DNA of 64,000 nucleotides from contig CP107851.1 of assembly GCA_036013505.1 (NCBI GenBank), positions 372,001 through 436,000 of the forward strand. Direction: 5' to 3'. The translations under genes and the position numbers were made by a program. The stretch comes from Streptomyces sp. NBC_00510 (GTDB lineage: Bacteria > Actinomycetota > Actinomycetes > Streptomycetales > Streptomycetaceae). The notes under the pieces are model-generated. The model saw nothing but the letters and a program-made list of their open reading frames with translations, searched no databases and was not told where the DNA came from. Positions 28,160-47,978 of this stretch are shown here, one piece after another. Numbering within the stretch: the stretch's first letter is position 1; the number at the start of each line of letters is the position of its first letter.

Positions 28160-28513
28160 TCACGAGGTAGTCCCGGCGAGGAGCGCGAGGTACCAGGCAA
28201 TCAGTGCCGCGCCAAGTACTGCAGGGATGAGGCTGGGCAGCCTGTCGCCATTGCGGACGTGGGTTGCCACAGCGCCGGCGAGAAGCAGCAGCAAACCGGT
28301 GGCGGCCAGGGCTCCGAACAGCGGCACGACGGGGCCGAGGGTCACGCCGACGGCGCCTGCCAGTTCCAGGGATCCGATGACGCGGTAGCCGGTGGTGCTG
28401 AAGCCGGCGTGGGCGGCCATCTTGGGCATGGGGCCCAGGGCCAGCATCTTGGCCATGCCCACGAGGGCGAAGATCAAAGCGATGAAGCAGAGCAGGACGG
28501 TGGGGAGGTTCAC
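28160..28513 (-). CDS. DoxX-like four-helix membrane protein
   Basis: The 117-residue product has four membrane helices: TVLLCFIALIFALVGMAKML, VIGSLELAGAVGVTLGP, LFGALAATGLLLLLAGAVAT and LIPAVLGAALIAWYLALLAG. This is the DoxX/DoxD-like family, some members of which act as quinone-linked membrane subunits. It follows the aromatic operon with a gap of 119 bp and may be its last gene. A related gene (47631) accompanies the second hydrolase locus. Start is GTG 28513. Confidence 0.85.
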   Translation of the reverse strand: MNLPTVLLCFIALIFALVGMAKMLALGPMPKMAAHAGFSTTGYRVIGSLELAGAVGVTLGPVVPLFGALAATGLLLLLAGAVATHVRNGDRLPSLIPAVLGAALIAWYLALLAGTTS

Positions 28514-32303: not shown

Positions 32304-33238
32304 TCGGCGTCCGCCACGGGGGTGTGCTGCTCGCCGAGGTCGATCCGCCCGTCGGGGGTGGCGATCGTGGCGGTGATCAGGTCGCCGTGCCGCAGGTAGC
32401 GGGGGTTCTTGGCCTGGCTGTTGAAGAATGCCTTCCATTTCCGTGCGGGCGGCAGCAGCGCGCCGATCTTCTCGACCGCCTTGGGCGGGGCCTTCAAGGC
32501 GGTGCCCCCGGGGGTGCCGGTCAGCAGCAGGTCGCCCGGATCGAGGGTCTGGAAACGGGCAAGGAGAGTGAGCGCCTGCGCGGGCCGCACGATCATGTCG
32601 GCCAGCGTGTGGTCCTGGCGCGGTTCGCTGTTGACGGACAGTCGCAGTCGCAGGTCGAGCAGGTGGGCGAAGTCTTCGCCTTCCAGCAGGGCCAGGTGCG
32701 GTCCGGTGGGTGTGAAGGTGGGGTAGGACTTGCTCTCGTAGAACTGGGTCTTGGTCAGTTGGACGTCTCGGGCGCTGACGTCGTTGGTCAGGACGAGGCC
32801 GGCGACGTAGCGCGGCAGGTCCCGCTCCTGGACGACGGCGCCCACGGGCAGGGGGGCGCCCAGGACGAGGCCGACTTCCACCTCGTAGTCGAGGAACTTC
32901 ACGTGCGCGGGGCGGACGATCGTGTCGTGCGGGCCGCTGACCGAGCCGGATGCCTTGCGGAAGAAGGTGGGCGGGATGTCGCCGGTGAGGCCCGAATCGC
33001 GGGCGTGGCTGCGGTAGTTGACCATCTGGGCGACCACCCGGCAGGGGGTGGTGACCGGGGACAGTGGCACCAGGTCGGCGACAGGCGTGCCGCTTTCGGT
33101 GGAGGAGGCGGCCTCGCGGACTGCGGCGCGGTCGGCGAGCAGCTCGGCGGTGGTGGCCGCCTTGGTGTCAATCCGGACGGCGCGCTCATCGCGCACCGCC
33201 CACCAGCCGTCGGCGGTGCGCATGACGTTGGTGCTCAA
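32300..33238 (-). CDS. Fumarylacetoacetate hydrolase-family enzyme, intact copy
   Basis: The 312-residue product has the FAH fold: CRVVAQMVNYRSHARDSG, FFRKASGSVSGPHDTIV, FLDYEVEVGLVLGAPLPVG with the metal-binding E-x-E, LTNDVSARDVQLTKTQFYES with the Asp ligand, and PGDLLLTGTPGGTALKAP. TTG 33238 is preferred over ATG 33223: it overlaps the upstream stop (TTGA) like the other junctions and gives the same N-terminus as the paralogue at 46422. It probably hydrolyses or isomerises the ring-fission product. Confidence 0.85.
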   Translation of the reverse strand: MSTNVMRTADGWWAVRDERAVRIDTKAATTAELLADRAAVREAASSTESGTPVADLVPLSPVTTPCRVVAQMVNYRSHARDSGLTGDIPPTFFRKASGSVSGPHDTIVRPAHVKFLDYEVEVGLVLGAPLPVGAVVQERDLPRYVAGLVLTNDVSARDVQLTKTQFYESKSYPTFTPTGPHLALLEGEDFAHLLDLRLRLSVNSEPRQDHTLADMIVRPAQALTLLARFQTLDPGDLLLTGTPGGTALKAPPKAVEKIGALLPPARKWKAFFNSQAKNPRYLRHGDLITATIATPDGRIDLGEQHTPVADAE

Positions 33239-34380
33239 GAGCTCATCGCTTTCATCAGGCCCAGCAGGCGCGCGGGGTCGAGTTCGTTGTCGCCGCGCAG
33301 GGCCTTGAGGACCTCGCGGAGCTTGGCGGGGGACGGGCTCGTGCCCAGGAAGTCGCGGGTGGCCGATGGGCCCCACTGGGCCAGGCCGCCGGCGGACATC
33401 GGCGCCCACCCGGGCTCGACGTCACAGGAGAACAGGTCGCCGTCGGCGAAGTGCTCCAGCATGAAGCGGTCGGGGTCGCGCCAGTAGTCGAACAGCTGGC
33501 TGCCTTGGATGTGCCGGCCGATCCCCCAGCTGCGTCGGTAGCCGCGCTCGGCCAGGTACTCCCCGCCGGCGGCGATCGCGTCGAGGTCGGTGACCTGGTA
33601 GGCGGAGTGGACGTAGCCGGCTCCGGGCCCCAGGTGCATGGCCAGGGTGTGGTGGTCCACGGCGGTGCTGCCCTGGTCGCAGCGGATGAAGGCCATGGTC
33701 GGCCCACGGTCGCGCTGCCCGTCCAGGAACAGGAAGTCGGACACGATCAGCCCGAGGGTGTCCAGGTACCAGTCCAGGGTTCGGGCGAACACCGGTGTCT
33801 CCACGACCACATGGCCCAGACGCTGGATACGGGACGGCTCGCGGGGCGGACGTTGGGTGGCGTTCGTACGGCGGTGGTCGGTGCCGAAATTCAAAGTCAG
33901 CGGGCGCTGCTCGGGCAGCGCGGGCAAGGGTTCGGCGCAATGGACGACGCGGACCGGCATGCCCGAGGGGTCGAGCAAGGAGAGTGACTGTCCGCCGCCG
34001 GGTACGTCGGCGTCCGTGACGGTGCTGCCGGTGGCACGGGCCAGCCGGCCCACATCGGCTTGCTCGGCCGCGCGGAAGGCCGGCCCGATAAAGCGGGAGG
34101 CGCGTCCACGGCGGATGACCATGCACGGTGGACCGGCGAAGGTGCCGCGCAGCCACAGTTCCCGCTCGGTGCGGGCGGCGATCGCGAACCCGAAGTCACG
34201 TGCGAACACCTCGGCCCGGTCCAGGTCCGGCTTCTCGAACTCCAGCCACGCCAGGTCCGCCACCTTGATCACCGGATTGAGGGAGCGCCCGAGGTGCTCG
34301 CCGCGCAGGGCGCCCTGCTCGCTGTGGAGGTCCTGGTGGGCCGTCGGGGGGCCGGCCTTGTTAACGGGAGTTTCGGTCAT
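33235..34380 (-). CDS. VOC-family extradiol-type dioxygenase
   Basis: The 381-residue product contains two VOC (glyoxalase/dioxygenase) modules. The second carries candidate iron ligands: IQRLGHVVVETPVFARTLDW (His), GAGYVHSAYQVTDLDAIAAG (His) and DPDRFMLEHFADGDLFSCD (Glu). It is likely to open a catechol- or hydroquinone-type ring. The first module (ADLAWLEFEKPDLDRAEVFA) lacks these residues, as in type I extradiol enzymes. ATG 34380 follows GGAGGG. First gene of the operon, divergent from TetR 34517. Confidence 0.85.
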   Translation of the reverse strand: MTETPVNKAGPPTAHQDLHSEQGALRGEHLGRSLNPVIKVADLAWLEFEKPDLDRAEVFARDFGFAIAARTERELWLRGTFAGPPCMVIRRGRASRFIGPAFRAAEQADVGRLARATGSTVTDADVPGGGQSLSLLDPSGMPVRVVHCAEPLPALPEQRPLTLNFGTDHRRTNATQRPPREPSRIQRLGHVVVETPVFARTLDWYLDTLGLIVSDFLFLDGQRDRGPTMAFIRCDQGSTAVDHHTLAMHLGPGAGYVHSAYQVTDLDAIAAGGEYLAERGYRRSWGIGRHIQGSQLFDYWRDPDRFMLEHFADGDLFSCDVEPGWAPMSAGGLAQWGPSATRDFLGTSPSPAKLREVLKALRGDNELDPARLLGLMKAMSS

Positions 34381-34461
34381 GGTGCCCTCCAAGCAACACT
34401 GCTGTAATGAGGAAATCATCAACTCTGAAAAGTTCATCGTCAATAGGAGGGCGTCAAGTAA

Positions 34462-34477
34462 CTGATGAAAACATCAG
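34462..34477. promoter_or_regulatory. TetR operator candidate in divergent promoter
   Basis: CTGATG-AAAA-CATCAG, a perfect palindrome between the dioxygenase operon and the TetR gene. The same arms occur at 46348. It lies about 40 bp upstream of the TetR start, over the -35 region. Confidence 0.75.
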
Positions 34478-34504
34478 ACATGTAAGACTCATCGCCACGG
34501 TTGT

Positions 34505-34510
34505 TACACT
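34505..34510 (+). promoter_or_regulatory. -10 element for a leaderless TetR transcript
   Basis: TACACT ends six bases before the ATG at 34517 and no ribosome site is visible, so transcription probably begins at the start codon. Confidence 0.55.
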
Positions 34511-34516
34511 CTCCGT

Positions 34517-35152
34517 ATGCCGACGTCAGCCCCGCCCGGGAACCGCTTCGAGCGGCGCCGCGCCGAGACCCGCCACGCCCTGGTCCGCGCGGCCCGCCAG
34601 CTCCTCGCGGAGACCGGCGACACCAGCGCCAGCATCCAGACGATCGCCGATCGCGCGGACGTCGGTTTCGGCTCCTTCTACAACCACTTCGAGTCCAAGA
34701 CGGATCTGTTCAACGCCGCCGTCTCAGACGCTCTGGAGGAGTTCGGGCAGGTCATCGACGAGCGCGTCCAGGGAATCGACGACCCGGCCGAACTCGTCGC
34801 AGCCGGCTTCCGGCTCACCGGACGGATGGTGGACTCCCACCCGGAACTCATGCGGATCCTGCGCGATCACGGGCTCGCCCACATCCACTCCGAGCGCGGC
34901 CTCGCCCCGCGGGCCCTGCGCGACATCCGGCACGGCTTGGACTCGGGCCGTTTCACCTGCACCGACCCGACCATGGCACTGTCGGCAATGGGCGGGACCC
35001 TGCTGTCCCTGGTGGCGCTGAGGCTCGCCCGGCCCGACAGCGACGGTGACGAGGCCGCCTCGGACCTGGCCGAGATGGTCCTGCGCATGCTCGGCGTCGC
35101 CCCCGACAACGCCCATGAGGTCACCCGGCGGCCCCTGCCCGGCCTCAGCTGA
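34517..35152 (+). CDS. TetR-family regulator of the aromatic operon
   Basis: The 211-residue product has the TetR DNA-binding domain at its N-terminus (ALVRAARQLLAETGDTSASI, QTIADRADVGFGSFYNHFES) and a helical effector domain. It is divergent from the dioxygenase operon, with the CTGATG-N4-CATCAG palindrome between them. It is therefore the best candidate for binding that site, and through the copies near 46.3 kb it may also control the second hydrolase locus. The effector is probably an aromatic substrate or ring-cleavage product (inference). Confidence 0.9.
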   Translation: MPTSAPPGNRFERRRAETRHALVRAARQLLAETGDTSASIQTIADRADVGFGSFYNHFESKTDLFNAAVSDALEEFGQVIDERVQGIDDPAELVAAGFRLTGRMVDSHPELMRILRDHGLAHIHSERGLAPRALRDIRHGLDSGRFTCTDPTMALSAMGGTLLSLVALRLARPDSDGDEAASDLAEMVLRMLGVAPDNAHEVTRRPLPGLS

Positions 35153-35350
35153 CTCCGGGTCGCTCCGGCAGGCCGACCACCCAGCTACGGCATGTAACGG
35201 GGGCCTAGATGTCCAGGCTGGCCGCACCGACTCGGAGGCGGAACAGTTCCTCGGGATCTGCCCACGTGTAGACGGTCCATCGGGGTGGCTCCGAACCAAG
35301 CGCGCAGGACGCTGATCAAGCGCGCCCCGGTTACCGACAGACCGTGGCGG

Positions 35351-35372
35351 GTTCGCCGCTGCAGCGGCGAAC
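35351..35372. repeat. Perfect 22-bp palindrome
   Basis: GTTCGCCGCTG followed directly by its reverse complement. It lies between the convergent TetR and alcohol dehydrogenase genes and may help terminate the TetR transcript. Confidence 0.55.
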
Positions 35373-35418
35373 GCGTCCGTGCCCCTTGGAAGCGGTTCGA
35401 GGGCCGAAGCGACAGACC

Positions 35419-35454
35419 GTGGGCGCCGGTGCTCCCTCTAACACCGGCGCCCAC
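35419..35454 (-). terminator. Terminator of the alcohol dehydrogenase gene
   Basis: GTGGGCGCCGGTG and CACCGGCGCCCAC form a perfect 13-bp stem with a 10-base loop, seven bases beyond the stop codon. Confidence 0.75.
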
Positions 35455-35460
35455 GAGGCG

Positions 35461-36507
35461 TCAGGGGACGAGGATGAGGCGGATCGGGTCCCCGATCTTG
35501 TTCTCCAGGCGGTGGACTGCGTCGGCGGCCTCAGCCAGCGGAATGTGGTCAGTGATGGAGGGGGCCAGGTCGAGACGGCCGTTGGACGCCAACTGCACCA
35601 GCTCGGAGACGGACTCGGGAGAGCCGCCGTAGTGACCGCGCACCTGCTTGGACATGTAGTTGAAGGTCAGGCCCTCGGTGATGATGAGCGGCTTGGGCGT
35701 GATGCCCACCAGGATCAGGGAGCCGTCCAGGCCGAGCACGGAGGCGGCCTGCTCACGGACGGCGGGCACGCCGGCGCAGTCGAAGGCGAAGTCCAGGCCG
35801 CGTCCGCCGGTGGCGGCGCGTACCTGGTCGGCGAAGTCGGGGGCGGCCGGATCCAGAGCGAAGTCCGCGCCGAAGGCCAGAGCTCGTTCCCGGGCGCTGG
35901 GCAGCGGGTCAACAGCGATGATCGGCGCGGCGCCGACCAGGCGGGCGAGGCGCACGTTGTGCGCGCCCACTCCACCTACGCCCCACACGCCGACGGACTG
36001 GGCGGGACGAACGCCTGCGGTGGTGACGACGGCGGCGTAGGGGGTGGAGACCGCGTCGGGGATGATCGCGGCCTGGTCGAAGGGGAGGCTGTTGGGGATG
36101 GGGATGAGGGTGTCCTCGCGGGCGAGGGTGTACTGAGCCCAGCCGCCGTCGTAGTCGATGCCGGCGGTGCGCATCTGGGTGCAGGGGCGGCGGCGCACGC
36201 AGCCGGCGCACCAGCCGCAGGTCTTGCCGGCCTCCAGGGTGACGCGGGTGCCGACGGTCAGGCCGCGCTTGAGGTCGGGGCCCAGCGTGTGGATCACACC
36301 GGAGACCTCGTGTCCGACGGTGACCGTGTCGGAGGCGGCGAACAGCGGGACGAGAGAGCCGTCAATCAGGTGGACGTCCGACAGGCAGACACCTGCGGCC
36401 TTCACCTCGATGAGGACTTCGCCCGGGCCGGGCACGGGGACGGGCACCTCCTCCACGGCGAACTTCTTGCTGTCCAGGTGGAAGCGTCCAGCGAGCATGG
36501 TGTCCAT
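35461..36507 (-). CDS. Zinc-dependent alcohol dehydrogenase (MDR family)
   Basis: The 348-residue product has catalytic-zinc residues in AAGVCLSDVHLIDGSL and TVGHEVSGVIHTLG, and a structural-zinc cluster CGWCAGCVRRRPC (four Cys). The NAD(P) site is SVGVWGVGGVGAHNVRLA. It is a medium-chain alcohol/polyol dehydrogenase; the substrate is not predictable. It follows the P450 gene, but a 16-bp-stem hairpin lies between, so co-transcription may be partial. A natural partner would oxidise the alcohol made by the P450 (inference). Confidence 0.9.
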   Translation of the reverse strand: MDTMLAGRFHLDSKKFAVEEVPVPVPGPGEVLIEVKAAGVCLSDVHLIDGSLVPLFAASDTVTVGHEVSGVIHTLGPDLKRGLTVGTRVTLEAGKTCGWCAGCVRRRPCTQMRTAGIDYDGGWAQYTLAREDTLIPIPNSLPFDQAAIIPDAVSTPYAAVVTTAGVRPAQSVGVWGVGGVGAHNVRLARLVGAAPIIAVDPLPSARERALAFGADFALDPAAPDFADQVRAATGGRGLDFAFDCAGVPAVREQAASVLGLDGSLILVGITPKPLIITEGLTFNYMSKQVRGHYGGSPESVSELVQLASNGRLDLAPSITDHIPLAEAADAVHRLENKIGDPIRLILVP

Positions 36508-36563
36508 GGGGATCTGCTTTCTGTGAGCGGCACTCCCGGCAGTTCGGGCCGATGGGTGCCGTG

Positions 36564-36584
36564 TGGCGTCTGGCGTCTGGCGTC
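36564..36584. repeat. Heptamer tandem repeat TGGCGTC x3
   Basis: Three perfect copies plus a partial fourth, in the leader between the P450 and alcohol dehydrogenase genes. Confidence 0.8.
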
Positions 36585-36600
36585 TGGCGGGCTTGTGGTG

Positions 36601-36646
36601 GCCGGGAGGCGTGCGGGTAGCACGACTGCGCCGCACGCCTCCCGGC
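36601..36646 (-). terminator. Strong hairpin after the P450 gene
   Basis: GCCGGGAGGCGTGCGG pairs perfectly with CCGCACGCCTCCCGGC (16 bp stem, 14-base loop), starting nine bases past the P450 stop. Confidence 0.7.
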
Positions 36647-36654
36647 GTCTGGGG

Positions 36655-39600
36655 TCAGGCGAAGACGTCCTGCTGGTAGCGCTCGTCGGCTTCGAGCTGG
36701 GCAAGCCACTGCTGGGCGCCCTCGTCGTCACTGCCGGTCTGCTGGCGGTGGATGGCAGCGAGGGCTTCGCGCACGGCAGGCGCCATGCGGCGGCCGTCCC
36801 CGCAGACGTAGATGTACGCGCCGTCTTCGATGGCCTGCCACACCGTGTCGGCAATGTTGGCGATGGCGTTCTGCACGAACCGGGCGGGGTGGCCGGTCAC
36901 CGCGGAGAAGGCGGTGTGGACCTGGGCGATCCCGGACTGCTCCCAGTCCTGCATCTCCTGGCGGTAGAAGTAGTCGTGCTCAGGGTGCCGACAGCCGACG
37001 AACACCTGCGAAAGGCCCACCTTCGCGCCGTTCTCGTGCTGCTGGGCACGCTCCTCCAGGAAGCCGCGCAGCGGCGCGATGCCGGTGCCGGGGCCGATGA
37101 GGATCAGCGGCGTGGCGGGGTCGGTCGGCGGGGCGAACGTCGGAGAGGGCACGCGCACGTAACCGTAGAAGACGTCACCGGGCTCGAGGCCTGCGATGTA
37201 GGAGGAGCAGGTGCCGCGGTACTGGCCGTCGCCGGACAGGGCCGGGCCCTCCAGCAGGCCCACGGTCAGACGCACCTGGCGCGGACTGGCCAGTGGGGCG
37301 GAGGAGATGGAGTAGAAGCGGGGACGGATCGGGCCCGTCATCTCCAGGAAGACCGCCAGCGGCAGCTTGACTGCGGGGAAGCGCTCCAGCAGGTTCAGCA
37401 CTGAGACGCGCTTGCCTAGGATCTCGCTCTGGTAGCGCTCCTCGGCTTCGGTGGTGTCGGCGATGTAGGCCTGCAGCTGCGGCCGGGTCCAGGGGCACTG
37501 GGTGTGCTCGGCGAGGGTCTGGATCTGGGAGCGGGTGGCCACGTCCTGCAGTTCCAGGAACTCGGTGAGCAGGACGCCGGCGGTCACCGGGGTGCCCACG
37601 GGCAGGTGGGTGCGGCCGCCTGCGGGCTGGTCCAGGCGGAGCACCTGGTCGCGGTCGACGCCGAGGCGGGCGAGTGCGCGGGCCACCAGCGCCGGTTCGT
37701 TCTTGGCGAAGACGGCCAGATGGTTGCCGGTGTCGTAGGTGACACCCTCAGGCAGCTCAACGGTGATGGACTTGGCGGACGGGCGCGGCGGCTCGATGCT
37801 GAAGTCCCACAGGCCGGTCGCGTCGGCCACGAGTTCCTCGTTGGCCACCACCGTGAGCGGGTAGGCCTGCTCGGAGACGATCGCCGGGCGCACATCCGCC
37901 TCGGTGAGCAGTTGCACATGGTAGCGCGGGCCGCTCGCGGCGGAGGTGTCGGCGGCGTACTCCTCGGCCAGGGTGGACCACAAAGTGGTCATCCAGCGAC
38001 TCGCCATGCCGTCGAAGTCCCCTGCGGCGTCCGCGATGCCGCGCTCGATGACGGGGGTGGCGCCGGCGGCCAGCAGGCCTCCCTCGATCCGCTTGGGGAA
38101 AGCCTGGTAGGTGGCCACCCACTGGGTGTTGCCGGCGCCCAGCAGCGCGTACCGCACGTGGGTCAGCGAGCCCTCGGGCAGTCCGGCGGCGAGCAGGTCG
38201 TCGAAGCGCTGGGCGTTGTCGGGGGCCTTGCCGTTGTAGCTGGCGGCGACGACGACGAGCAGGCCCTCGGTGGGCAGGTTGTCGCCCAGCTCGTCCAGGC
38301 TGACCAGGGTGGTGCCGAACCCGGAGCGCTCGCCGCGGTCGGCGATGGTGCGCGCCAGGTCCTCGCACGAGCCCAGGCTGGAGCCGTAGGCGACGGTGAG
38401 GTTCACCCCGACACCGCTGACCGCGGCCTGCGCCTGCGTGTCATCCGTCTGCAGGTCGGCGGCGCCGAAGACGGCCCGCTCGCGCTCCTTGCGGGTGCGT
38501 ACGACGAGGTTGAAGTCGCCGGGCTTACGCGTCAGCGCCTCCCGGGGATCCATCTTGTAGTCGGCGGTGTCGGAGAACTTGATCTTCTGCAGCACCAGAG
38601 CGAGGGCCAGGCGGGCCTCGGTGAGCGCGAATTGGCGGCCGATGCAGGCCCGTACGCCGTTGCCGAACGGCTTGTAGGCGTGGGGGTGCTGCTGGACCCG
38701 GTTGTCCGGCAGCCAGCGGTCGATGTCGAACTCCTCCGGCCGCTCCCACGCCTTGGGATGGGTGTGCAGCGGGCCCTCCAGGATGAGGACCTTCGTGCCC
38801 TTCTTCAGCTCGTAGCGGCCGCCGATGACGGTGTCCTCCCGCGCCGTCTTGCCGAATAGCGGGATGGGCGCCCACAGGCGCAGGGTTTCCTCCAGGATGC
38901 GCGGGATCACATCCAGCTTCATGATCGTGTCGTAGTCCGGCACCGTGTCGCCCGGCAGCAGGCGGTCCACCTCTGCGTAGGCCTGGGCCAGCACGTGCGG
39001 GTTGCGCATCAGCGAGTACGTGGCGAACGACAGCAGGCCGCTGGTGGTCTCGTGACCGGCGATCAGGAACGTCAGCACCTGGTCGCGGACGTTGTCGTCG
39101 GCCAGCAGCTTGCCGGTCTCCGGGTCGGTTGCCTCCAGCATCAGGCCCAGCAGGTCCTCCTCACCGGTGCCTTTCCCCTCGCGGCGCTCCTTGATCACGC
39201 GCTCGACCAGGTCCTGCATCAGCAGGATGTTCTCGCGGTACTTCTTGTCGTCCGACTTGCGGAGCATGGTCATCATCGGCAGCTCCTGCGAGCGCCGCAG
39301 CGACTCCACCAGCGCGCCCAGCAGCGCGTTGAGGAAGGGGTGCAGCTCCTCCTTGTCGAAGGAGTCGAATCGGTAGCCGAACCCCGACAGGGCGATGGTG
39401 TCCAGCGTCAGCCGGGTGTAGTCGTCGGTGATGTTGACCGGCTGACCCTCCCTGCGCTCCCACTTGCCCACCAGGTTCTGGGCGATCTCCAGCATCTGCC
39501 CGTAGTAGGCCTTCATGGCCCGCTGGCTGAAGGCCGGCAGGAGGATCCGGTGCGCCATGCCCCATTCCTCTTCGTGCTGGTGGGCCGTGAACAGGCCCGC

Positions 39601-39876
39601 ACCCGCGAAGTCCCGGACATGGTTCAGCGGCGTCTTCTCGATCTGCTTGAAGAACCGGGTCTCGTCGCAGACCTCAGCCACCAGGTCCGGGTCGTAGACG
39701 AAGACCTGCTCGATCCCGGCGATGTCCATGCCGTAGATGCCCTCAGGGAACTGCTTGGACAGCTCGGCGAAGTAGGCGAACGGATTGGTGCCGGGGATCT
39801 GCGTCGTGTGGCCGAGGAGCGGGATCCCGCGCGGAGACCGTATGGGGCGAAGGTCGTTCGCGGAGTGCGTGGTCAT
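36655..39876 (-). CDS. Self-sufficient cytochrome P450-reductase fusion (CYP102/BM3 type)
   Basis: The 1073-residue product joins a P450 domain (residues about 1-460) to a diflavin reductase. P450 motifs: LTFLIAGHETTSGLLSFATY (I helix), ExxR at 330-333, and YKPFGNGVRACIGRQFALTE with haem Cys411. The reductase has an FMN domain (VAYGSSLGSCEDLARTIAD), FAD site (RPRFYSISSAPLASPRQVRL) and NADPH site (ILIGPGTGIAPLRGFLEERA). Such enzymes hydroxylate fatty acids or related compounds with NADPH and O2. ATG 39876 follows AAGGAG. Paired operators upstream predict control by the divergent TetR. Confidence 0.95.
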   Translation of the reverse strand: MTTHSANDLRPIRSPRGIPLLGHTTQIPGTNPFAYFAELSKQFPEGIYGMDIAGIEQVFVYDPDLVAEVCDETRFFKQIEKTPLNHVRDFAGAGLFTAHQHEEEWGMAHRILLPAFSQRAMKAYYGQMLEIAQNLVGKWERREGQPVNITDDYTRLTLDTIALSGFGYRFDSFDKEELHPFLNALLGALVESLRRSQELPMMTMLRKSDDKKYRENILLMQDLVERVIKERREGKGTGEEDLLGLMLEATDPETGKLLADDNVRDQVLTFLIAGHETTSGLLSFATYSLMRNPHVLAQAYAEVDRLLPGDTVPDYDTIMKLDVIPRILEETLRLWAPIPLFGKTAREDTVIGGRYELKKGTKVLILEGPLHTHPKAWERPEEFDIDRWLPDNRVQQHPHAYKPFGNGVRACIGRQFALTEARLALALVLQKIKFSDTADYKMDPREALTRKPGDFNLVVRTRKERERAVFGAADLQTDDTQAQAAVSGVGVNLTVAYGSSLGSCEDLARTIADRGERSGFGTTLVSLDELGDNLPTEGLLVVVAASYNGKAPDNAQRFDDLLAAGLPEGSLTHVRYALLGAGNTQWVATYQAFPKRIEGGLLAAGATPVIERGIADAAGDFDGMASRWMTTLWSTLAEEYAADTSAASGPRYHVQLLTEADVRPAIVSEQAYPLTVVANEELVADATGLWDFSIEPPRPSAKSITVELPEGVTYDTGNHLAVFAKNEPALVARALARLGVDRDQVLRLDQPAGGRTHLPVGTPVTAGVLLTEFLELQDVATRSQIQTLAEHTQCPWTRPQLQAYIADTTEAEERYQSEILGKRVSVLNLLERFPAVKLPLAVFLEMTGPIRPRFYSISSAPLASPRQVRLTVGLLEGPALSGDGQYRGTCSSYIAGLEPGDVFYGYVRVPSPTFAPPTDPATPLILIGPGTGIAPLRGFLEERAQQHENGAKVGLSQVFVGCRHPEHDYFYRQEMQDWEQSGIAQVHTAFSAVTGHPARFVQNAIANIADTVWQAIEDGAYIYVCGDGRRMAPAVREALAAIHRQQTGSDDEGAQQWLAQLEADERYQQDVFA

Positions 39877-39942
39877 GGCTTGCTCCTTCGTGTGGAGGTG
39901 ATGGGCAAGGGCGCTGGTCGATGCCGCGGTGCACCACAGAAA

Positions 39943-39978
39943 CATACGCCGTATGGAAGTGATAACATACAGCGTATG
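39943..39978. promoter_or_regulatory. Operator pair 1 (P450 side)
   Basis: CATACGCCGTATG (39943) and CATACAGCGTATG (39966), start-to-start spacing 23 bp. They lie 67-102 bp upstream of the P450 gene. Confidence 0.8.
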
Positions 39979-40042
39979 GAAAGTCGAACACAGCCTGATC
40001 GCACCAGCCTTTGCGCCATCACCCTGCGGCCGGAGCTGTTTC

Positions 40043-40078
40043 CGTACGCCGTACGAGGCTGATACCATACGCAGTATG
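40043..40078. promoter_or_regulatory. Operator pair 2 (TetR side)
   Basis: CGTACGCCGTACG (40043) and CATACGCAGTATG (40066), again 23 bp apart. The last ATG of the second site is the TetR start codon, implying direct autorepression. Confidence 0.8.
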
Positions 40079-40735
40079 GAAAAGGCGAAGCGCCCCCCGC
40101 GGGGAACCAGGAAGAGAGACGTGCCCCTGACCGAGGCCGGGATCCACACCGCCGCCCTGCAGCTCATCGACACGGATGGTGTCGAGGCGCTCACCATGCG
40201 CAAACTTGCGACCGTGCTGGATGCCAACCCGATGTCGCTGTACCACCACGTACCGAACAAGGACGCCCTGCTGAGCGGCGTGGCAAGAATGGTCGGCGCC
40301 CAGTTCCGCACCGTGACGCTGGAGGACGCTCCCTGGCAGGACCGCATCCGCCTGCTCGCCACGGATTTCCGGACGCTGGCGCACCGCCACCCCAAGCTCA
40401 TGGCCTACTCGTTCAGCCAGCCGGACTTCATCCAGTCCGAAGACCCCTTCTGGGCTGGGCTCATCGCGATACTGGACACCGCAGGGGTGCCGCGCTCAGA
40501 AGTCCCGCAGATCGCCGCTCTCATGTGCGCCGTTGTCATCGGTGTCCTCACCGCCGAACTCAACGGCGCGCTCCGGCAGTGGTCGAACCTCACGCCCACC
40601 GCCCCCGCTGTCGGCGAAGACGGGCCCACGGATGCAGGCCCTGATGAGGACCGCATGTTCCGCCTGGTGCTGGACACGCTCATCACGGGCCTGGAAAGCC
40701 GGCTCACCGCCGACGGCCAGGGCGCCGGCCTTTGA
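40076..40735 (+). CDS. TetR-family regulator of the P450 gene
   Basis: The 219-residue product has a basic N-terminus (EKAKRPPRGTRKRD), the helix-turn-helix (LTMRKLATVLDANPMSLYHH) and VPNKDALLSGVARMVGAQFR. A C-terminal ligand domain follows, with LMAYSFSQPDFIQSEDPFWA and AALMCAVVIGVLTAELNGAL. The start codon lies inside operator 4, and no ribosome site fits. It should repress both itself and the P450. A decayed copy of this gene is at 42157. Confidence 0.9.
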   Translation: MEKAKRPPRGTRKRDVPLTEAGIHTAALQLIDTDGVEALTMRKLATVLDANPMSLYHHVPNKDALLSGVARMVGAQFRTVTLEDAPWQDRIRLLATDFRTLAHRHPKLMAYSFSQPDFIQSEDPFWAGLIAILDTAGVPRSEVPQIAALMCAVVIGVLTAELNGALRQWSNLTPTAPAVGEDGPTDAGPDEDRMFRLVLDTLITGLESRLTADGQGAGL

Positions 40736-40992
40736 GTCCGTGGTCCTGAGGTGTTGCGGCCTGAGGCAGGCCCGTGGGCGGGCGATCTCTGGCTGCGGTG
40801 CGTGGGGGGCACCCACATCCGGAAAGGCCATCGATGCGGCCGCTGCGGGTGCACGGTGTGCTGCGACTGGGCCGGGCGACCGATCTGTGGCCGAAGACAG
40901 CGCTCAGCACCCTGTCCGCGATGGCCGTGCCAAGTCTGATACTGCCGGCCGTGGGGCGAGTCGACCTGATGGTGTAGACAGTCGGCGGATCC

Positions 40993-42040
40993 ATGTGCGC
41001 GCTCTACGGGCACAGCCTGCCCTACGCTGCCCGCGCCCTGGCCTGCGTGGTGCTCGGCATGGCCGTGAGCAACGGGGTGGGGCTGGCGACCGCGGCCGCC
41101 ACAAGCAGCACCGCGGTCCGGGTTGCTGTGGCAGCTCGCTTTGCTGCTGCTCACAAGCTTGTGAGGCCACCCCGATCGACCCCGGGCGACGTCGTGTGCA
41201 CGTTGGTCGCGACCAACTGCGCCTTTTCCACAGCGCTTCGCCGACATCCTTACCACCTCGCGCTCCCCCTTGCCGCTGGTCTGCTGGCCTTGATGGTGCG
41301 CATGGCCCCCGGCCTCGTGCCGCCTCAGGAACGCATCGTCTGGCGGTGGCAAGGGCCTTGGACGCCGCCGTGCAGCTCGCTCACACCCCGGATGACGACC
41401 CCTCCCTGCCGAGCTGCGGGCGCGACAGCAGCCGAAGCCTGGCGCACGGTGTCGTCGGTAGGCGTCCGCTCCCTGGAGCGACAGACCCTGGCGCTGCTGC
41501 TGGCCCGCACCGAATCCAGCAGCGCCGGCCCCCAGGAGCTCACCCACTGGGCGACACTCCTGCGCGGAACCGCTCCGCTGCCCGCTCTCCTTCTGCCCTG
41601 CCCGAGAAACGATCAGGTCACCGGCGCTACCACCGCATCGAGCGCGGCGTGCAATAGACCGTGCAACGTCGGGCTGTTGCGTCGGTGTCACGTCCGCCAG
41701 CCGAGCGTCTTACGACCCGGTTCGATGCTGGCTGCCTCCTGGCCGGCTGGGCCTTCATGGCATTGGGCGTCGGCCGCCCGTACTGGGCCGTGGCCACCGC
41801 CGCCTCGATCTTCCAGTCCAACCTGGCCCTCACCTGGTAACGCGCCCTCAACCGGGTTTTCGGCAAATTTCGTCGGCCTCGCATTGTTCGCCGCCCTGCT
41901 GCCGATCACCCGCGCCGGTTCCCTCACCCTCGTGCTGGCTGTCCTGTTCTTCCAGGCCGCCACCAAGGCGACGATCAGCCGCGGCTACCGGCTCGGTCAG
42001 GTGTGCGGGCGGCAACGCGTCGGCGACCTCGGTGCCCCCA
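40993..42040 (+). pseudogene. FUSC-family (aromatic acid exporter-like) membrane protein, multiply broken
   Basis: Fragments in several frames fit a FUSC transporter: ALYGHSLPYAARALACVVLG and MAVSNGVGLATA, HLALPLAAGLLALMVRMAPG, AGWAFMALGVGRPYWAVATA then ASIFQSNLALTW followed by a stop, and GLALFAALLPITRAGSLTLV with LAVLFFQAATKATISRGYRL. GRPYW and ATKATISRGYRLGQ positions are typical. Several indels and at least one stop separate the pieces. It may once have exported aromatic acids for the neighbouring catabolic genes. Confidence 0.6.
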
Positions 42041-42146
42041 TGCCGGCCGCCGGTGGGAAGCGACCCGCACCAGGGCGGGAGAACTCGCTGGGCGCATGTC
42101 CCACGGTGCCGGCAAAGCCATTGCACGGAACTCCGTCCAGCGTTAC

Positions 42147-42159
42147 CATACACCGTATG
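42147..42159. promoter_or_regulatory. P450-type operator in front of the decayed TetR copy
   Basis: CATACACCGTATG, same motif as at 39943-40078, and again its last ATG is the start codon of the following (broken) TetR gene. Confidence 0.75.
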
Positions 42160-42590
42160 GAAACTCCCGGGAGGGTCCCGGGAGGCGAGGAGAAGAGATC
42201 CATGCGCCGAACAAGGACGCCCTGCTGCGCGGCGTGACACGACGTGTCGGCTCACAGTCCCGCCTGCCGGAGCGGGAAGACGCTGGCGGCAGCGCCAGCG
42301 CCAAGCGGCCCTGGTTTCCGCACACCGGAAGCCCAAGCTGACGGGCTGCTCCTTCCCACGGCCCGACTTCCTCCAGCCAGAAGACCCCTACCGGGGAGGC
42401 CTCACCGATGCACTGCCCGCCGCGGAATTGCCGGACCCGGAGATTCCACGGGCCGCGGGTGAGCGCCGTCCCGTGCGCGGCGTTCGCGGGACTGCTGGTC
42501 AGCGGAGCGAGCGGAGCCCTGCAGCGGTGGGCAACCCTGCCGCCTGCACCCGTCGCCGCCGGCGGGATAGAGACGTCCGCGACACCGCAG
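42157..42590 (+). pseudogene. Decayed second copy of the P450 TetR regulator
   Basis: From ATG 42157 the frame reads METPGRVPGGEEKRS, like the basic start of the gene at 40076. About 45 residues of the helix-turn-helix are then missing, and another frame gives HAPNKDALLRGVTRRVGSQS. A third gives AHRKPKLTGCSFPRPDFLQP and EDPYRGGLTDALPAAELPD, matching the ligand domain of the intact protein. A large deletion plus at least two frameshifts make it non-functional. Confidence 0.7.
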
Positions 42591-42899
42591 ACCCCTGGTG
42601 GACACGACGTTCAACTGTGCGCAGGACGCCGCGATCGCCTGCGTGAAAGCCGTACCGCAAGGGCGAGTGGTGACCGTCCCACCGACGCCCGCCCCGCACC
42701 CAGACGAAGGCCACTGCGGCACCGCCAGGTCTCCCTCAGGAGCAGCAGGGATTAAACAGCGCCTACGGCGGCCCCGCTTGCCGTCCAGCCCTCCCCCGAG
42801 CCCTCACCTCAGATACGCGACGTAGATGATCTCGATCATCTGGGCAAGTGGCAGCGGCGGCCACAGATCTCCTCGCCAGTTCTGACAGTAAGGTGAAAA

Positions 42900-45332
42900 A
42901 TGGGCATGAAACGAACAAATTATCCGGTTTGTGATTGCCAGAGGACAAAGAGCATGCCAAGTCCCAATCCTGGCGACTGGCCGTACGCCTTCGACGGCCT
43001 GGCAACCGCCGTACTCGACAGCCGGGGCACAGTGTTGTGGTGGACCGAGACGGCGGCGGACCTGACAGGGCTTACGGCCAGAGAGGTCTGCGGCCGTCCT
43101 GTACAGGAACTGCTGGCCGACCTCCCCAGCGACCCCGGCACAGCCGAGGAGATACCTATATTCGGCCAGGTACGGCTGCGCCACCGTTCTGGAGACATCA
43201 TCCCTGTCACCTTCCGGGCGACGCGGGACACAAGGTCCGGCAATTCCCTTGTCATGGCGGAGCCTGCACAGTCCGTGTCCGATCAGCAGCAGGGTGCAGC
43301 ACTCCTGCGCACACTGTCCTCTCAGGACCGAATCGGGATCGCCCTGCATGATCTGAACCTGATCATCGTGCACAGCAACAACCTGTCGCGCGTGTTTGGC
43401 TGCCCCCCTGTGCCGCCCGGAGGCCGCCTGCACGACGTGCTGGCGGACGGGGATGCTGAGGACGCCGAGGCGTTCCTGCGTCAGGTCCTCGACACGGGCG
43501 CACCGTTGATCCGCGAGAACCAGCCAGTGAGCTGGCAGCACGATCCGGCGCGGCGGCGGGCCATGTCACTGTCCGCCTCCCGTCTCGAGGACGAGCGGGG
43601 GCGCCCGACCGGAGTTGTGGCGTTGTACAGCGATGCCACTGATCAGTGGCAGGCTCGCCAGCACCTGGATCTCGCCCGCAAGACGGCCGAACGCGTCGGG
43701 AGGTTACTCGACGTCGTGCGCACAGCCCATGAACTGGCGGACGTACTAGTGCCGGACCTCGGAGACTTCGCCGCAGTCGATCTCGCGCAGGCCGTATTCG
43801 ACGGTGATGAACCCGTGAAGCGACTGGGCGGCGGAGATCTTCATCTGCGCAACGCCGCGATGGCACCGACCGCCGAGGGGTGGCCGGCCGGAATCAAGCG
43901 CGGCAACCTTGTACCACCGCTCCCCGATCACCCCCTCCTGCGCAGCTTTCAGCACGGTGAAACCGTCATCCTCAGCCGCGACGAGTACATCGCTGTGATC
44001 GGCGATCCCCAGCTGGTCGAGTTCCTGATGCCGAAGAACTGTCACTCGGTGATGGTGGCACCGCTGCACGCTCGCGGCCTCACGCTCGGCGACATATCCG
44101 TTTGGCGCGTCGGCTCATCCGCGCCGTTCACCGAGGACGAGGCGGATCTCATGGCTCAGATCGCCTCGAGGAGCGCGCTCGCCATCGACAACGCCCGCCG
44201 TTACACACGCGAGCACAGGGCGGCCGTGGCGTTGCAGCAACGTCTTCTTCCTCCGGCCACGACCGACACTCCGGCAGCCGAGACCGCTGGTGTCTACCTG
44301 CCCGCAGGCGGCGGAGCGGAGATCGGCGGCGACTGGTTCGACGCTATTGCTCTGCCTTCTCTCCGGCTGGCCCTTGTCGCCGGGGATGTGGTCGGCCATG
44401 GCATGGCCGCAAGCGCCGCTATGGGCCGTCTGCGCGCCGCCATCCAGACCCTCGCCGACCTCGAACTCGAGCCCGACGAGTTGCTCACCCGGATCGCGGA
44501 CTTGGTTCAGCGCCTTGCGGCCGAAGCCCCACCGGACGACCAGGACACCGTCGGCGCCACGTGCCTGTACGCGCTCTACGACCCGGTAACTCAACGCTGC
44601 ACCCTGGCCAGTGCGGGGCATCCGTCGCCCATCCTGGTCCGGCCCGACGGGACGGCCGCAGTAATCGAGGTCTCCCCGGGACCGCCACTCGCCATCGGCG
44701 GCATGCCGTACGAAACCACCACGATCGACCTTGAGCCGGGCAGCGTCCTCGGCCTCTACACGGACGGCCTGATCGAACGGGACGGCGACGACATCGGCCA
44801 AGGGCTGCGGCGTCTGACGGACACCCTCGCCGCCTCCTGCCGTCCGGAACGCCCTCTGGGCGACACCGGCGGGGCTCTCCTCGCCGACCTGGCCGGCCAA
44901 CCGCTGCGCGATGACGCGGCCCTGCTTCTGGCCCGCACTCGCGCCGTCCCATCGGAGGACACCGCTCACTGGGAGATCCCGCCCGACCCGGCCGCCGTCT
45001 ACGAGGCTCGGAAGTCGACGGCCCGCCAGCTCGCCGAGTGGGGGCTACAGGACCTCATGTTCACCACCGAACTTATCGTCAGTGAACTGGTGACCAACGC
45101 CATCCGCTACGGACGTCCGCCGATGGAACTGCGGCTGATCCGCCACGGCGTTCTGGTCTGCGAAGTCAGCGACTCCAGTCCCACCCAGCCCCGCCTGCGG
45201 CGTGCCCGCACCACCGACGAGGGAGGACGCGGCCTGTTCCTCGTCGCTCAACTCGCCACGCGCTGGGGCTGCAGGTACAGCCGAGACGGCAAGACGATCT
45301 GGGCCGAGCAGCTCATCGAGCAGCCACGTTGA
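42900..45332 (+). CDS. SpoIIE-type PP2C phosphatase with PAS, GAF and HATPase domains
   Basis: The 810-residue product has, in order, a PAS domain (about 28-110, LDSRGTVLWWTETAADLTGL), a second PAS-like region (about 140-250), a GAF domain (about 260-430) and a PP2C/SpoIIE phosphatase (about 450-655, GAEIGGDWFDAIALPSLRLA, LVAGDVVGHGMAASAAMG). A C-terminal GHKL ATPase follows (about 690-805, FTTELIVSELVTNAIRYGRP, DEGGRGLFLVAQLATRWGCR). It should both phosphorylate and dephosphorylate STAS-type antagonists. ATG 42900 has AAGGTG; ATG 42954 is an alternative. Confidence 0.9.
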   Translation: MGMKRTNYPVCDCQRTKSMPSPNPGDWPYAFDGLATAVLDSRGTVLWWTETAADLTGLTAREVCGRPVQELLADLPSDPGTAEEIPIFGQVRLRHRSGDIIPVTFRATRDTRSGNSLVMAEPAQSVSDQQQGAALLRTLSSQDRIGIALHDLNLIIVHSNNLSRVFGCPPVPPGGRLHDVLADGDAEDAEAFLRQVLDTGAPLIRENQPVSWQHDPARRRAMSLSASRLEDERGRPTGVVALYSDATDQWQARQHLDLARKTAERVGRLLDVVRTAHELADVLVPDLGDFAAVDLAQAVFDGDEPVKRLGGGDLHLRNAAMAPTAEGWPAGIKRGNLVPPLPDHPLLRSFQHGETVILSRDEYIAVIGDPQLVEFLMPKNCHSVMVAPLHARGLTLGDISVWRVGSSAPFTEDEADLMAQIASRSALAIDNARRYTREHRAAVALQQRLLPPATTDTPAAETAGVYLPAGGGAEIGGDWFDAIALPSLRLALVAGDVVGHGMAASAAMGRLRAAIQTLADLELEPDELLTRIADLVQRLAAEAPPDDQDTVGATCLYALYDPVTQRCTLASAGHPSPILVRPDGTAAVIEVSPGPPLAIGGMPYETTTIDLEPGSVLGLYTDGLIERDGDDIGQGLRRLTDTLAASCRPERPLGDTGGALLADLAGQPLRDDAALLLARTRAVPSEDTAHWEIPPDPAAVYEARKSTARQLAEWGLQDLMFTTELIVSELVTNAIRYGRPPMELRLIRHGVLVCEVSDSSPTQPRLRRARTTDEGGRGLFLVAQLATRWGCRYSRDGKTIWAEQLIEQPR

Positions 45333-45344
45333 ACGACCATCCAC

Positions 45345-45717
45345 ACTGAACGGCGGCCGCCACGTTGGACATACCGCCAACTGCACACCCGGGGCCTGGA
45401 CGGCCTCCTCCTGCCGACCGAACTCATCGTCAGCGAACTGGTGACCAACCATCCGCTACGCGCACCCGCCGGTGCACCTGCGGCTGATCCGCCATGCCGT
45501 CCTGGTGTGCGAGGTCACCGACTCCAGCAGCACCCAACCCCGACTGCGGTATGCCCGTGCCACCGACGAGGGAGGACACGGCCTGTTCCTCATCGCCCAG
45601 CTCACCACCCGCTGGGGCTGCCGCTGCGCTGACAACGGCAAGACGATCTGGACCGAACAACCCATCCCCCGGGCCCCTGACGATCAGCCGGCACCCTCAC
45701 GATCGGGGACTCGGTGA
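45345..45717 (+). pseudogene. Broken tandem copy of the HATPase domain
   Basis: Directly after the SpoIIE gene the DNA encodes RQLHTRGLDGLLLPTELIVS-ELVTN and, in another frame, HLRLIRHAVLVCEVTDSSST, QPRLRYARATDEGGHGLFLI and AQLTTRWGCRCADNGKTIWT. This repeats the last 110 residues of the upstream protein. Two bases are missing at about 45453, where the upstream copy has NAIRY. The copies are roughly three-quarters identical by eye, so the duplication is not recent. Confidence 0.75.
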
Positions 45718-45807
45718 TGATGTCCGCGTCGGCTGCCTGGAGTTGCCGTCGCCCGGTTCACCCCTTCAGCACACACCCCTTCCGCCGGCCCCTCGTTGAG
45801 AGGGAAT

Positions 45808-45993
45808 GTGAACACCCCTCAGGAAGATCACGCGGACCGATGTGGCGCCACCCCGGCCCCACAGGCCGCGACCACCACGGCCTTCCGCGCTAAGATGCTG
45901 CGCCACGCTCTGAGGGAGCGGGCCGAACAGGAGATCGTGCAGCGGCTGGGTGCGACGGTGAAGTCCATGCTGTCGGCCCGGGTGACCCGGTGA
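45808..45993 (+). CDS. Small 'AFRA..LRH' protein, copy B
   Basis: The 61-residue product contains TTTAFRAKMLRHALRERAEQ then EIVQRLGATV, matching the helix in copy A at 12795. GTG 45808 follows GAGAGGG closely; TTG 45796 is an alternative start. Function unknown. Confidence 0.5.
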   Translation: MNTPQEDHADRCGATPAPQAATTTAFRAKMLRHALRERAEQEIVQRLGATVKSMLSARVTR

Positions 45994-46298
45994 CCACTCC
46001 CCCGGACAGGGCACACATGCCGACCCAAGGATGAGGCCGTGAAGGCGCTCGCCTCAGGTGGGGCAAAACTCCGGGCACGGCTGCCCGGCCGGTCGGCAAC
46101 GACTACGCCCGGGACAAGCGCATCATCCTGGCCCCAAGGGGCCCGTACTGCCGGCATCGCCGCCCGACGCCGGCCCGCTCGCCCCGGCTTCACCCCGGCG
46201 CATCGCCGAGGCGCTCGGTCGCGCCGGTTCGTTCGGGGGGTCCGACTGCCCCGCCTGTTGCGCCAGCCATCGGCTACTGGACCCCCACCACGAGGTTA

Positions 46299-46314
46299 CT
46301 GATCGTTTCATCGG
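46299..46314. promoter_or_regulatory. Degenerate CTGATG-type operator
   Basis: CTGATC-GTTT-CATCGG, an imperfect version of the palindrome at 46348 and 34462, with 33 bp between this site and the perfect site. Confidence 0.45.
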
Positions 46315-46347
46315 TCCTGATGAGACTTGACGAATGAGCCATTGACG

Positions 46348-46363
46348 CTGATGATTTCATCAG
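46348..46363. promoter_or_regulatory. TetR operator upstream of the second hydrolase gene
   Basis: CTGATGA-TT-TCATCAG, a perfect palindrome with the same CTGATG/CATCAG arms and spacing as at 34462, 59 bp before the hydrolase start. Confidence 0.75.
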
Positions 46364-46421: not shown

Positions 46422-47264
46422 ATGAACATTCCGGTCGTCCGCACCGGCGAGGGCTGGTGGGTGGAGAGCGGCACAGGACGGCTGCACCGCGTCACCACCA
46501 GCGCCGGGACCACTGCGGACCTGCTCGCTGACCGCGCTGCGGTGACCGAGGCCGCGGCCCGGGCCGCGGCCGACCCGGACGCCGGGCAACTGGCGCAAGG
46601 AGAACTGCTCTCACCGCTCACCACGCCGTGTCGGGTGGTGGCGCGAATGGTCAACTACCCCTCCCATGCGGTGGACTCCGGGTTCGACCCGGACACCGTC
46701 CCGCCGGCGTTCTTCCGCAAGGCCTCGGGGTCCGTGAGCGGCCCTTACCAGGACATCGTGCGTCCCTCGCACGTGCGGTTCCTGGACTACGAGGTTGAGC
46801 TCGGGCTGGTGATGGGCGCGGACCTGCCGGTCGGCACACAGGTCACCGACTCCACCCTGTCCGACTATGTCGCCGCTCTGGTCGTCGCCGACGACCTGGC
46901 CCGCCTTTCCGACCTGCGGCTCACCTTGCAGGTCAACGGGGCCACCCGCCAGGACCGCACCGTCACCGACATGATCGTCAAGCCGGCGCGCGCCCTGACC
47001 CTCCTGTCCCGCTTCCAGACCCTCCAGCCCGGAGACGTGCTGCTCACCGGAACCCCCGGCGGGACCGCCCTGAATTCCCCGGGCAAGCTGGCGACCACGC
47101 TCGCCGCCTTGCTGCCGCCGCACAAGCGCTGGCAGAAGTTCTTCGCCCGCCAGCAGCACAACCCGCACTACCTGCAGGACGGCGACGTCGTCACCGCCCG
47201 CATCGCGACCGACGACGGCGTACTCGACCTCGGCGAGCAGAGCACGATGGTGCACACCCACTGA
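46422..47264 (+). CDS. Fumarylacetoacetate hydrolase-family protein with internal deletion
   Basis: The 280-residue product is a clear paralogue of 32300-33238: CRVVARMVNYPSHAVDSG, FFRKASGSVSGPYQDIVRPS, FLDYEVELGLVMGADLPVG, PGDVLLTGTPGGTALNSP. After YVAALVVADD it jumps straight to LARLSDLRLTLQVN. It lacks about 36 residues present in the paralogue, including NDVSARDVQ and the K-S-Y-P-T-F-T-P-T-G-P segment that supplies a metal ligand and active-site loop in this family. The frame is open. It is probably catalytically impaired. AGGAGAG precedes the ATG. Confidence 0.85.
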   Translation: MNIPVVRTGEGWWVESGTGRLHRVTTSAGTTADLLADRAAVTEAAARAAADPDAGQLAQGELLSPLTTPCRVVARMVNYPSHAVDSGFDPDTVPPAFFRKASGSVSGPYQDIVRPSHVRFLDYEVELGLVMGADLPVGTQVTDSTLSDYVAALVVADDLARLSDLRLTLQVNGATRQDRTVTDMIVKPARALTLLSRFQTLQPGDVLLTGTPGGTALNSPGKLATTLAALLPPHKRWQKFFARQQHNPHYLQDGDVVTARIATDDGVLDLGEQSTMVHTH

Positions 47265-47630: not shown

Positions 47631-47978
47631 ATGATCGCCACCGTCCTCCTGGCCGCCGTCCTGGCCGCGCTGTTCCTCCTGGTGGGAGCGGCCAAGCTCG
47701 CAGCGGTTCCCGCGATGCGTCAGGCCGCAGCCCACGTGGGCGCGACCCTCCCCCAGTACCGGCTGCTGGGCGCCTTGGAGGTGGCGGCAGCGGCCGGGCT
47801 GCTGGTCGGCCTGCGATGGCACACGCTCGGCGCCGCTGTCTCCACAGGCCTGGTCCTGCTCATGGCCGGAGCCGTGATCGTGCACCTGCGCAGCGGTGAC
47901 CGGGCCGTCCGCTGCCTGCCGGCCGCCGTCACCGGCGCCCTGGCCGCAGCCGAACTGGTCCTCCTGACGGTCTCCTAG
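47631..47978 (+). CDS. DoxX-like membrane protein, second copy
   Basis: The 115-residue product has four membrane helices (ATVLLAAVLAALFLLVGAAK, YRLLGALEVAAAAGLLVGLR, TLGAAVSTGLVLLMAGAVIV, AVTGALAAAELVLLTV) and conserved spacing of H-L-R-S-G-D before the last helix, as in HVRNGD of the copy at 28160. Together with the second hydrolase this reproduces part of the aromatic module. CAAGGAA precedes the ATG. Confidence 0.85.
   Translation: MIATVLLAAVLAALFLLVGAAKLAAVPAMRQAAAHVGATLPQYRLLGALEVAAAAGLLVGLRWHTLGAAVSTGLVLLMAGAVIVHLRSGDRAVRCLPAAVTGALAAAELVLLTVS

Follow-up and report, generated by a model that had tools for sequence, protein, structure and literature searches.

A RolR-type TetR repressor in Streptomyces sp. 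NBC_00510 and a second operator pair, apparently left by a lost paralog, that it probably also reads

Two gene clusters of Streptomyces sp. NBC_00510 carry the palindrome CTGATGN4CATCAG as exact sites in their promoter regions, 12 kb apart. The preliminary description of this DNA had proposed that a single TetR protein controls both. Does one repressor serve two loci here, and did the second locus ever have a regulator of its own? We analysed the window, a stretch of 64,000 nucleotides (contig CP107851.1, positions 372,001 to 436,000), together with the whole genome and the genomes of relatives. The results point to TetR1, encoded at locus 1, as a RolR-type repressor, and to locus 2 as a paralogous remnant that has lost its own regulator (TetRB) and is now probably also under TetR1.

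The operon of locus 1 lies on the minus strand. Its first gene (33235..34380) encodes a VOC-family, extradiol dioxygenase-like protein, whose NCBIfam matches were all below cut-off. It is followed by genes for FAH1, an intact FAA_hydrolase-family protein (32300..33223), an MhpA-like FAD hydroxylase (30666..32303; NF004829 above cut-off), an acetoacetate-CoA ligase (28633..30669; TIGR01217 above cut-off, tested on 28633-30522) and DoxX-like protein 1 (28160..28513). The start codons of FAH1 and the ligase were chosen in this analysis. An FAD hydroxylase, an extradiol dioxygenase, an FAH-type acylpyruvate hydrolase and an acetoacetate-CoA ligase would presumably fit the degradation of orcinol-like dihydroxy-aromatics, which is our guess. 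The ring-cleavage product of an orcinol-like compound would give acetoacetate and pyruvate.

Palindromes, operator pairs and promoters

Exact matching confirmed two palindromes with the same arms and spacing, at 34462-34477 (CTGATGAAAACATCAG) and 46348-46363 (CTGATGATTTCATCAG). They had been described as perfect 16-bp palindromes, which is true of the 6-bp arms and not of the 4-bp centres (AAAA and ATTT). Among 34 other genomes of the genus, 6 exact matches were found in 5 genomes, none of them with an all-A/T centre, and the reversed-pattern control gave 0 exact matches in the 35 genomes. The whole genome (10,147,553 bases) holds only 2 exact copies, both in the window. Exact sites are thus not frequent at unrelated genes, an outcome that would have spoken against a shared regulon, and with only 2 exact copies a repeat element is ruled out as the source of the palindromes.

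By chance, about 0.6 exact matches per genome are expected (first-order model, the window's own composition). Looser matches are not rare: the genome has 4 sites with at most one mismatch versus 5 for the control and 115 with at most two mismatches versus 81, and the window has 5 of the latter versus 2.27 expected, a number reached in 6 of 100 shuffles. The case therefore rests on exactness, promoter position and conservation, not on counts of degenerate copies.

We found that each exact palindrome is one of a pair. At locus 1, operator A (34462..34477) lies upstream of the predicted -35 element of the VOC operon; the gap to the TetR1 start codon is 39 bp. Its partner, operator B (34407..34422; ATGAGGAAATCATCAA, on the minus strand TTGATGATTTCCTCAT), had escaped the preliminary description and lies over the predicted -10 element; it has 3 mismatches to CTGATGN4CATCAG. 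At locus 2 the exact palindrome is operator B (46348..46363), which overlaps the predicted -10 element, and operator A (46299..46314; CTGATCGTTTCATCGG) is the copy with 2 mismatches. The latter had been called degenerate; yet the site is conserved in relatives, whose versions include TTGATTGTTTCATCAG and CTGATTATTTCATCAG.

The two predicted promoters are alike, each reading TTGACG-N17-GATGAT with GATGAT inside operator B. The VOC operon promoter (34415..34443, minus strand) has TTGACG at 34443-34438 and GATGAT at 34420-34415, and the FAH2 promoter of locus 2 (46327..46355, plus strand) has them at 46327-46332 and 46350-46355. We infer that these hexamers are the -35 and -10 elements of both promoters. 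The start-to-start spacing of operators A and B is 55 bp at locus 1 and 49 bp at locus 2.

Conservation was examined in two sets. The first is an alignment of 53 promoters (the window and 52 relatives whose TetR is >=72% identical), which shows two conserved operators with a conserved TTGACGA in between; at the 34407 site, 12 of the 16 positions are the same in 50 or more promoters. One broken gene (L075:3963-4566, genome G364) was left out of this set; here the TetR1 ortholog is split in two reading frames, and an intact copy is present elsewhere in the same genome. The second set comprised the regions up to 260 bp upstream of 150 matching TetR genes of the clade, 132 of which were kept after duplicates and upstream regions shorter than 200 bp had been dropped. 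Of 75 TetR1-type genes, the window's own included, 66 carry in these 260 bp a site with two mismatches or fewer (none in 5, one in 37, two in 24), compared with 0/75 for the reversed pattern and 0.9% for mononucleotide shuffles. Two of the nine genes with no site at this threshold are the pieces of the broken L075 gene. Among the rows nearer to TetRB, far mycobacterial and nocardioform members included, the site is present in 35/57 (control 0/57). Taken together, these data indicate that the palindrome is probably the conserved operator of the TetR1 clade.

TetR1 and the RolR family

TetR1 (34517..35152, plus strand) matches PF00440 and PF21306, as expected of a TetR DNA-binding domain joined to a RolR-like C-terminal domain, and has the recognition helix DVGFGSFYNHF. 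Among PDB chains, 3aqs/3aqt comes closest (E 3.8e-33, aligned over residues 5-211), and the next has an E-value of 3.2e-9. These entries are RolR (NCgl1110), the resorcinol regulator of Corynebacterium glutamicum, according to PMC3086911. The two proteins are identical at 72 of 205 aligned residues. Both have the Gly-x-Gly recognition helix, in which RolR Gly63 and Gly65 are matched by G50 and G52 of TetR1, and the four residues of the resorcinol motif, Asp94-Arg145-Arg148-Asp149, which correspond to D81, R132, R135 and D136. Both helix glycines and the Asp149 position are invariant in 152/152 aligned clade proteins. At E<=1e-25 the genome yields no clade member besides TetR1, and the next best match there has an E-value of 1.1e-9.

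The likeness extends to the DNA. From the RolR-bound fragment printed in PMC3086911 we defined the operator form TGAxyN4y'x'TCA, which occurs twice in that fragment and exactly at 34462 and 46348 in the window. There are also differences: where helix residue 64 of RolR is Thr, TetR1 has Phe, the half-sites are TGAAC and TGAAT in the printed fragment and TGATG in the window, and the palindromes are 18 bp apart in that fragment versus 55 and 49 bp here. RolR was reportedly also placed behind a reporter in a mutational-scanning study (PMC9662819). The repressor is of a known kind; the orphaned operator pair of locus 2 is unusual. In the open library searched, the five exact operator strings appeared in no paper, and no paper was found there on orcinol or trihydroxytoluene genes or on a Streptomyces TetR and its operator together with resorcinol and orcinol.

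Judged from sequence, each promoter would be bound by TetR1 dimers at two palindromic operators, the first immediately upstream of the -35 element and the second over the -10 element, and we propose that their occupancy blocks RNA polymerase. Operator A of locus 1 would also lie within the promoter region of TetR1 itself. A resorcinol-like ring compound would release TetR1 and so induce catabolism of dihydroxy-aromatics by the FAD hydroxylase, extradiol dioxygenase, FAH-type hydrolase and acetoacetate-CoA ligase. What began as a guess from a motif can now be tested as a repressor-operator system, one that has a known structural relative and for which a class of inducer is predicted.

We further compared residue x of the Gly-x-Gly helix with base x of the half-site in the rows that have a palindrome. 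The set had 178 rows; L261 was left out, and short rows as well as rows with stops, with no helix pattern or with less than 120 bp upstream were dropped. An exact TGAxyN4y'x'TCA lies within 300 bp upstream of 112/178 clade TetRs (mononucleotide shuffles 0.37%). Among palindrome rows, Phe goes with T in 62/64, Met with C in 27/27 and Val with A in 8/8; counting rows with no palindrome as well, the set has 100 Phe, 41 Met and 17 Val rows. One of the 27 Met rows has a T site besides its C site. Of the rarer residues, Leu (8 rows) has C in 3 and T in 1, and Ile (8 rows) has A in 4 and C in 2; single rows with Gln, Asn and Ala have C, C and T, respectively. In RolR the residue is Thr, and the base is A in each palindrome of the printed fragment; two palindromes arose in 0/5000 shuffles. 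When one mismatch was allowed outside the tested base (152 rows, 26 with no site), the half-sites were less clean: Phe had T 111, G 21 and C 4, Met had C 49, G 12 and T 9, Val had A 16 and C 2, and Ile had A 5, C 6 and T 1.

In a phylogenetic sign test, the pairing of Phe with T gave 3 independent pairs on starred branches (mean 2.7 concordant, 0 discordant, 0.3 undecided; p 0.25) and that of Val with A gave 2 pairs, none discordant; both tests are underpowered. With exact palindromes only, there were 2 and 3 pairs, none discordant and about half undecided (p 1 and 0.5). The trees show 2-4 independent changes, none discordant, so the pattern is strong in counts and weak in phylogenetic independence. 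It offers a simple hypothesis for the DNA specificity of RolR-type regulators, and our search of the open library found no paper on helix covariation in TetR proteins.

Locus 2 and its counterparts in relatives

The first gene of locus 2 encodes FAH2 (46422..47264, plus strand), which has an in-frame loss of 36 codons with the junction near 46893. FAH2 does not contain the conserved DDVSARD...K stretch, which is present in 8/8 orthologs (L134-L141), in FAH1 as NDVSARD, and as an aligned segment in solved relatives. It thus falls outside the pattern (N/D)D(V/I/M)(S/T)ARD...K by which we recognized functional FAH-family hydrolases, a segment that we take to have metal-binding and catalytic roles. 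This suggests that FAH2 is probably inactive. Its dN/dS against the orthologs is 0.19-0.25, compared with 0.16-0.34 among the intact orthologs. Apart from the deletion there is thus no visible decay, and FAH2 may still be used. The next gene encodes DoxX-like protein 2 (47631..47978, plus strand; start codon chosen here). In three relatives (L114-L116, by Pfam for L115 and L116) an AMP-binding acyl-CoA synthetase gene stands between FAH2 and DoxX2; this gene is absent from the window.

A search of FAH2-region DNA against 394 family genomes gave the best matches in G065, G074, G100 and G117, in pieces of 73-86% identity (81-86% in the first three, 73-80% in G117). With ordinary scoring, the homology starts at operator A (46299-46300) in three of these four relatives; in G100 it starts at operator B. 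Named genomes were also scanned with FAH2. Among the best 80 of 162 loci, 8 (L134-L141) match at >=73%, and TetRB adjoins FAH2 in 8/8 of these. Together with L114-L117, two of which (L114 and L115) are the same places as L137 and L141, they make up 10 distinct clusters.

An adjacent RolR-type TetR is present in 10/10 intact locus-2-type clusters examined. Nine of these regulators are TetRB and divergent; the tenth (L117) is co-oriented and nearer to TetR1 in sequence. The clusters with TetRB, in Streptomyces bungoensis, S. filipinensis, Kitasatospora sp. DSM 101779, Peterkaempfera griseoplana and others, have the operator pair, the promoter and the FAH2-DoxX2 order of the window. Unlike the window, they have a RolR-type TetR beside FAH2, an intact FAH2 and an acyl-CoA synthetase (examined in L114-L116). 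Streptomyces bungoensis has both clusters on one contig, and a separate TetR accompanies each of them (L135, L153); in Streptomyces sp. BK340, TetRB was seen and the stretch examined ends inside cluster 1. The preliminary description had noted two gene families common to the loci 12 kb apart. The sharing reflects the paralogy of the two clusters, and the second hydrolase has lost a conserved active-site segment.

For a remnant of TetRB, we searched 45300-46298. Neither tblastn (best E 0.028) nor permissive blastn gave a convincing match, and this candidate was rejected; permissive blastn to L116 gave one intergenic alignment (61%) that extends leftward from operator A to about 46153. Nor does the genome contain another clade TetR at E<=1e-25. 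The region upstream of operator A holds a second stretch (45417-45669) resembling the C-terminal part of a SpoIIE-like phosphatase, after the full gene (42900-45332).

Probable control of both loci by TetR1

Locus 2 would thus be what remains of a paralogous cluster that shared the promoter layout of locus 1 and once had its own RolR-type repressor. TetRB, the acyl-CoA synthetase and the hydrolase segment would have been lost in this genome, the operator pair would have survived, and TetR1 would have taken over the promoter. The helix DVGFGSFYNHF is identical in 8/10 FAH2-adjacent TetRs (the other two differ at one or two positions), so the operators should be mutually readable. Since TetR1 has this same helix and no other clade member was found in the genome, it most likely represses the locus 2 promoter too, and control of both loci by TetR1 is likely by default. 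The proposal of a single TetR for both loci stands to this extent.

Relatives are consistent with action in trans. In G102, 212 kb lie between the sole clade TetR (E<=1e-25) and the aromatic operon; both carry the operator, and the 9 kb examined around the operon have no TetR-like match (E<=1e-3). In G373, with one clade TetR, the TetR (1-mismatch site) and the operon (two 2-mismatch sites) are on different contigs. In G271 a TetR and an operon, both with a site, are separated by 3.7 kb; this genome has two clade TetRs and is no single-TetR case. The lone, unlinked TetRs support action in trans.

The fit to locus 2 may be imperfect. Position 6 of the arm is usually T in operator A of locus-2-type clusters and the 46299 site has 2 mismatches, so TetR1 may bind it weakly. 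In the 11 TetRB-type or FAH2-adjacent rows, RolR Arg145 is replaced by Gln in 8 and Asp94 by Glu in 4; the inducer of TetRB may therefore differ.

These mismatches at 46299, together with the missing TetRB and synthetase and the lost hydrolase segment, would also fit unregulated debris, in which relic TetRB operators stay unbound by TetR1 in the cell and the promoter is constitutive or silent. We regard this as unlikely: the 46348 site is an exact consensus, closer than 61 of the 66 sites at TetR1-type genes, and TetR1 has the same recognition helix. Less probable by far is a purpose-built regulon whose second locus never had its own TetR. The single clade TetR found in the genome and the unlinked lone TetRs of relatives are what such a regulon would produce, but the regulators in all 10 locus-2-type clusters examined elsewhere argue strongly against it. 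By origin, the idea that locus 2 needs no TetR of its own is not supported.

Capture by TetR1 after the loss of TetRB would give a naturally occurring example of operators that have survived their repressor next to a paralog still expected to recognize them. Such capture would be possible because one residue of the Gly-x-Gly helix would set base 5 of the half-site throughout the RolR family (Phe T, Met/Leu C, Val/Ile/Thr A) and both paralogs carry Phe. We put this fuller account forward tentatively, at somewhat short of an even chance.

Ownership of the CTGATG palindromes by another regulator, such as TetR2, which sits between both loci, is highly improbable. TetR2 (40076..40735, plus strand), a TetR-family regulator divergent from CYP102, has its own palindrome: in the CYP102-TetR2 intergenic region (39877-40075), CATACG-N-CGTATG is exact in 7/8 aligned loci with one mismatch in the eighth, and is probably the TetR2 operator. 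The best CTGATG match there has 4-5 mismatches in all 8 loci, and TetR1 orthologs retain an adjacent CTGATG operator in stretches where TetR2 has no match (e.g. L078, L079, L081). TetR2 was therefore rejected as owner. Chance can practically be dismissed, since despite the exact matches expected from composition and degenerate matches roughly as common as controls, orthologous promoters keep the palindrome at a fixed distance and it covaries with the repressor's helix.

Two further arrangements were seen in relatives. Three or more CTGATG-type palindromes (<=2 mismatches) surround one RolR-type TetR in L126, L128, L129 and L130. In six genomes (L065, L067, L068, L073, L074, L083), a SpoIIE-like phosphatase gene has a further TetR1 paralog (55-61% identical) close by, and the stretch between the two holds a CTGATG-type palindrome (<=2 mismatches), which suggests a RolR-type regulator of a SpoIIE-like signalling phosphatase in these relatives.
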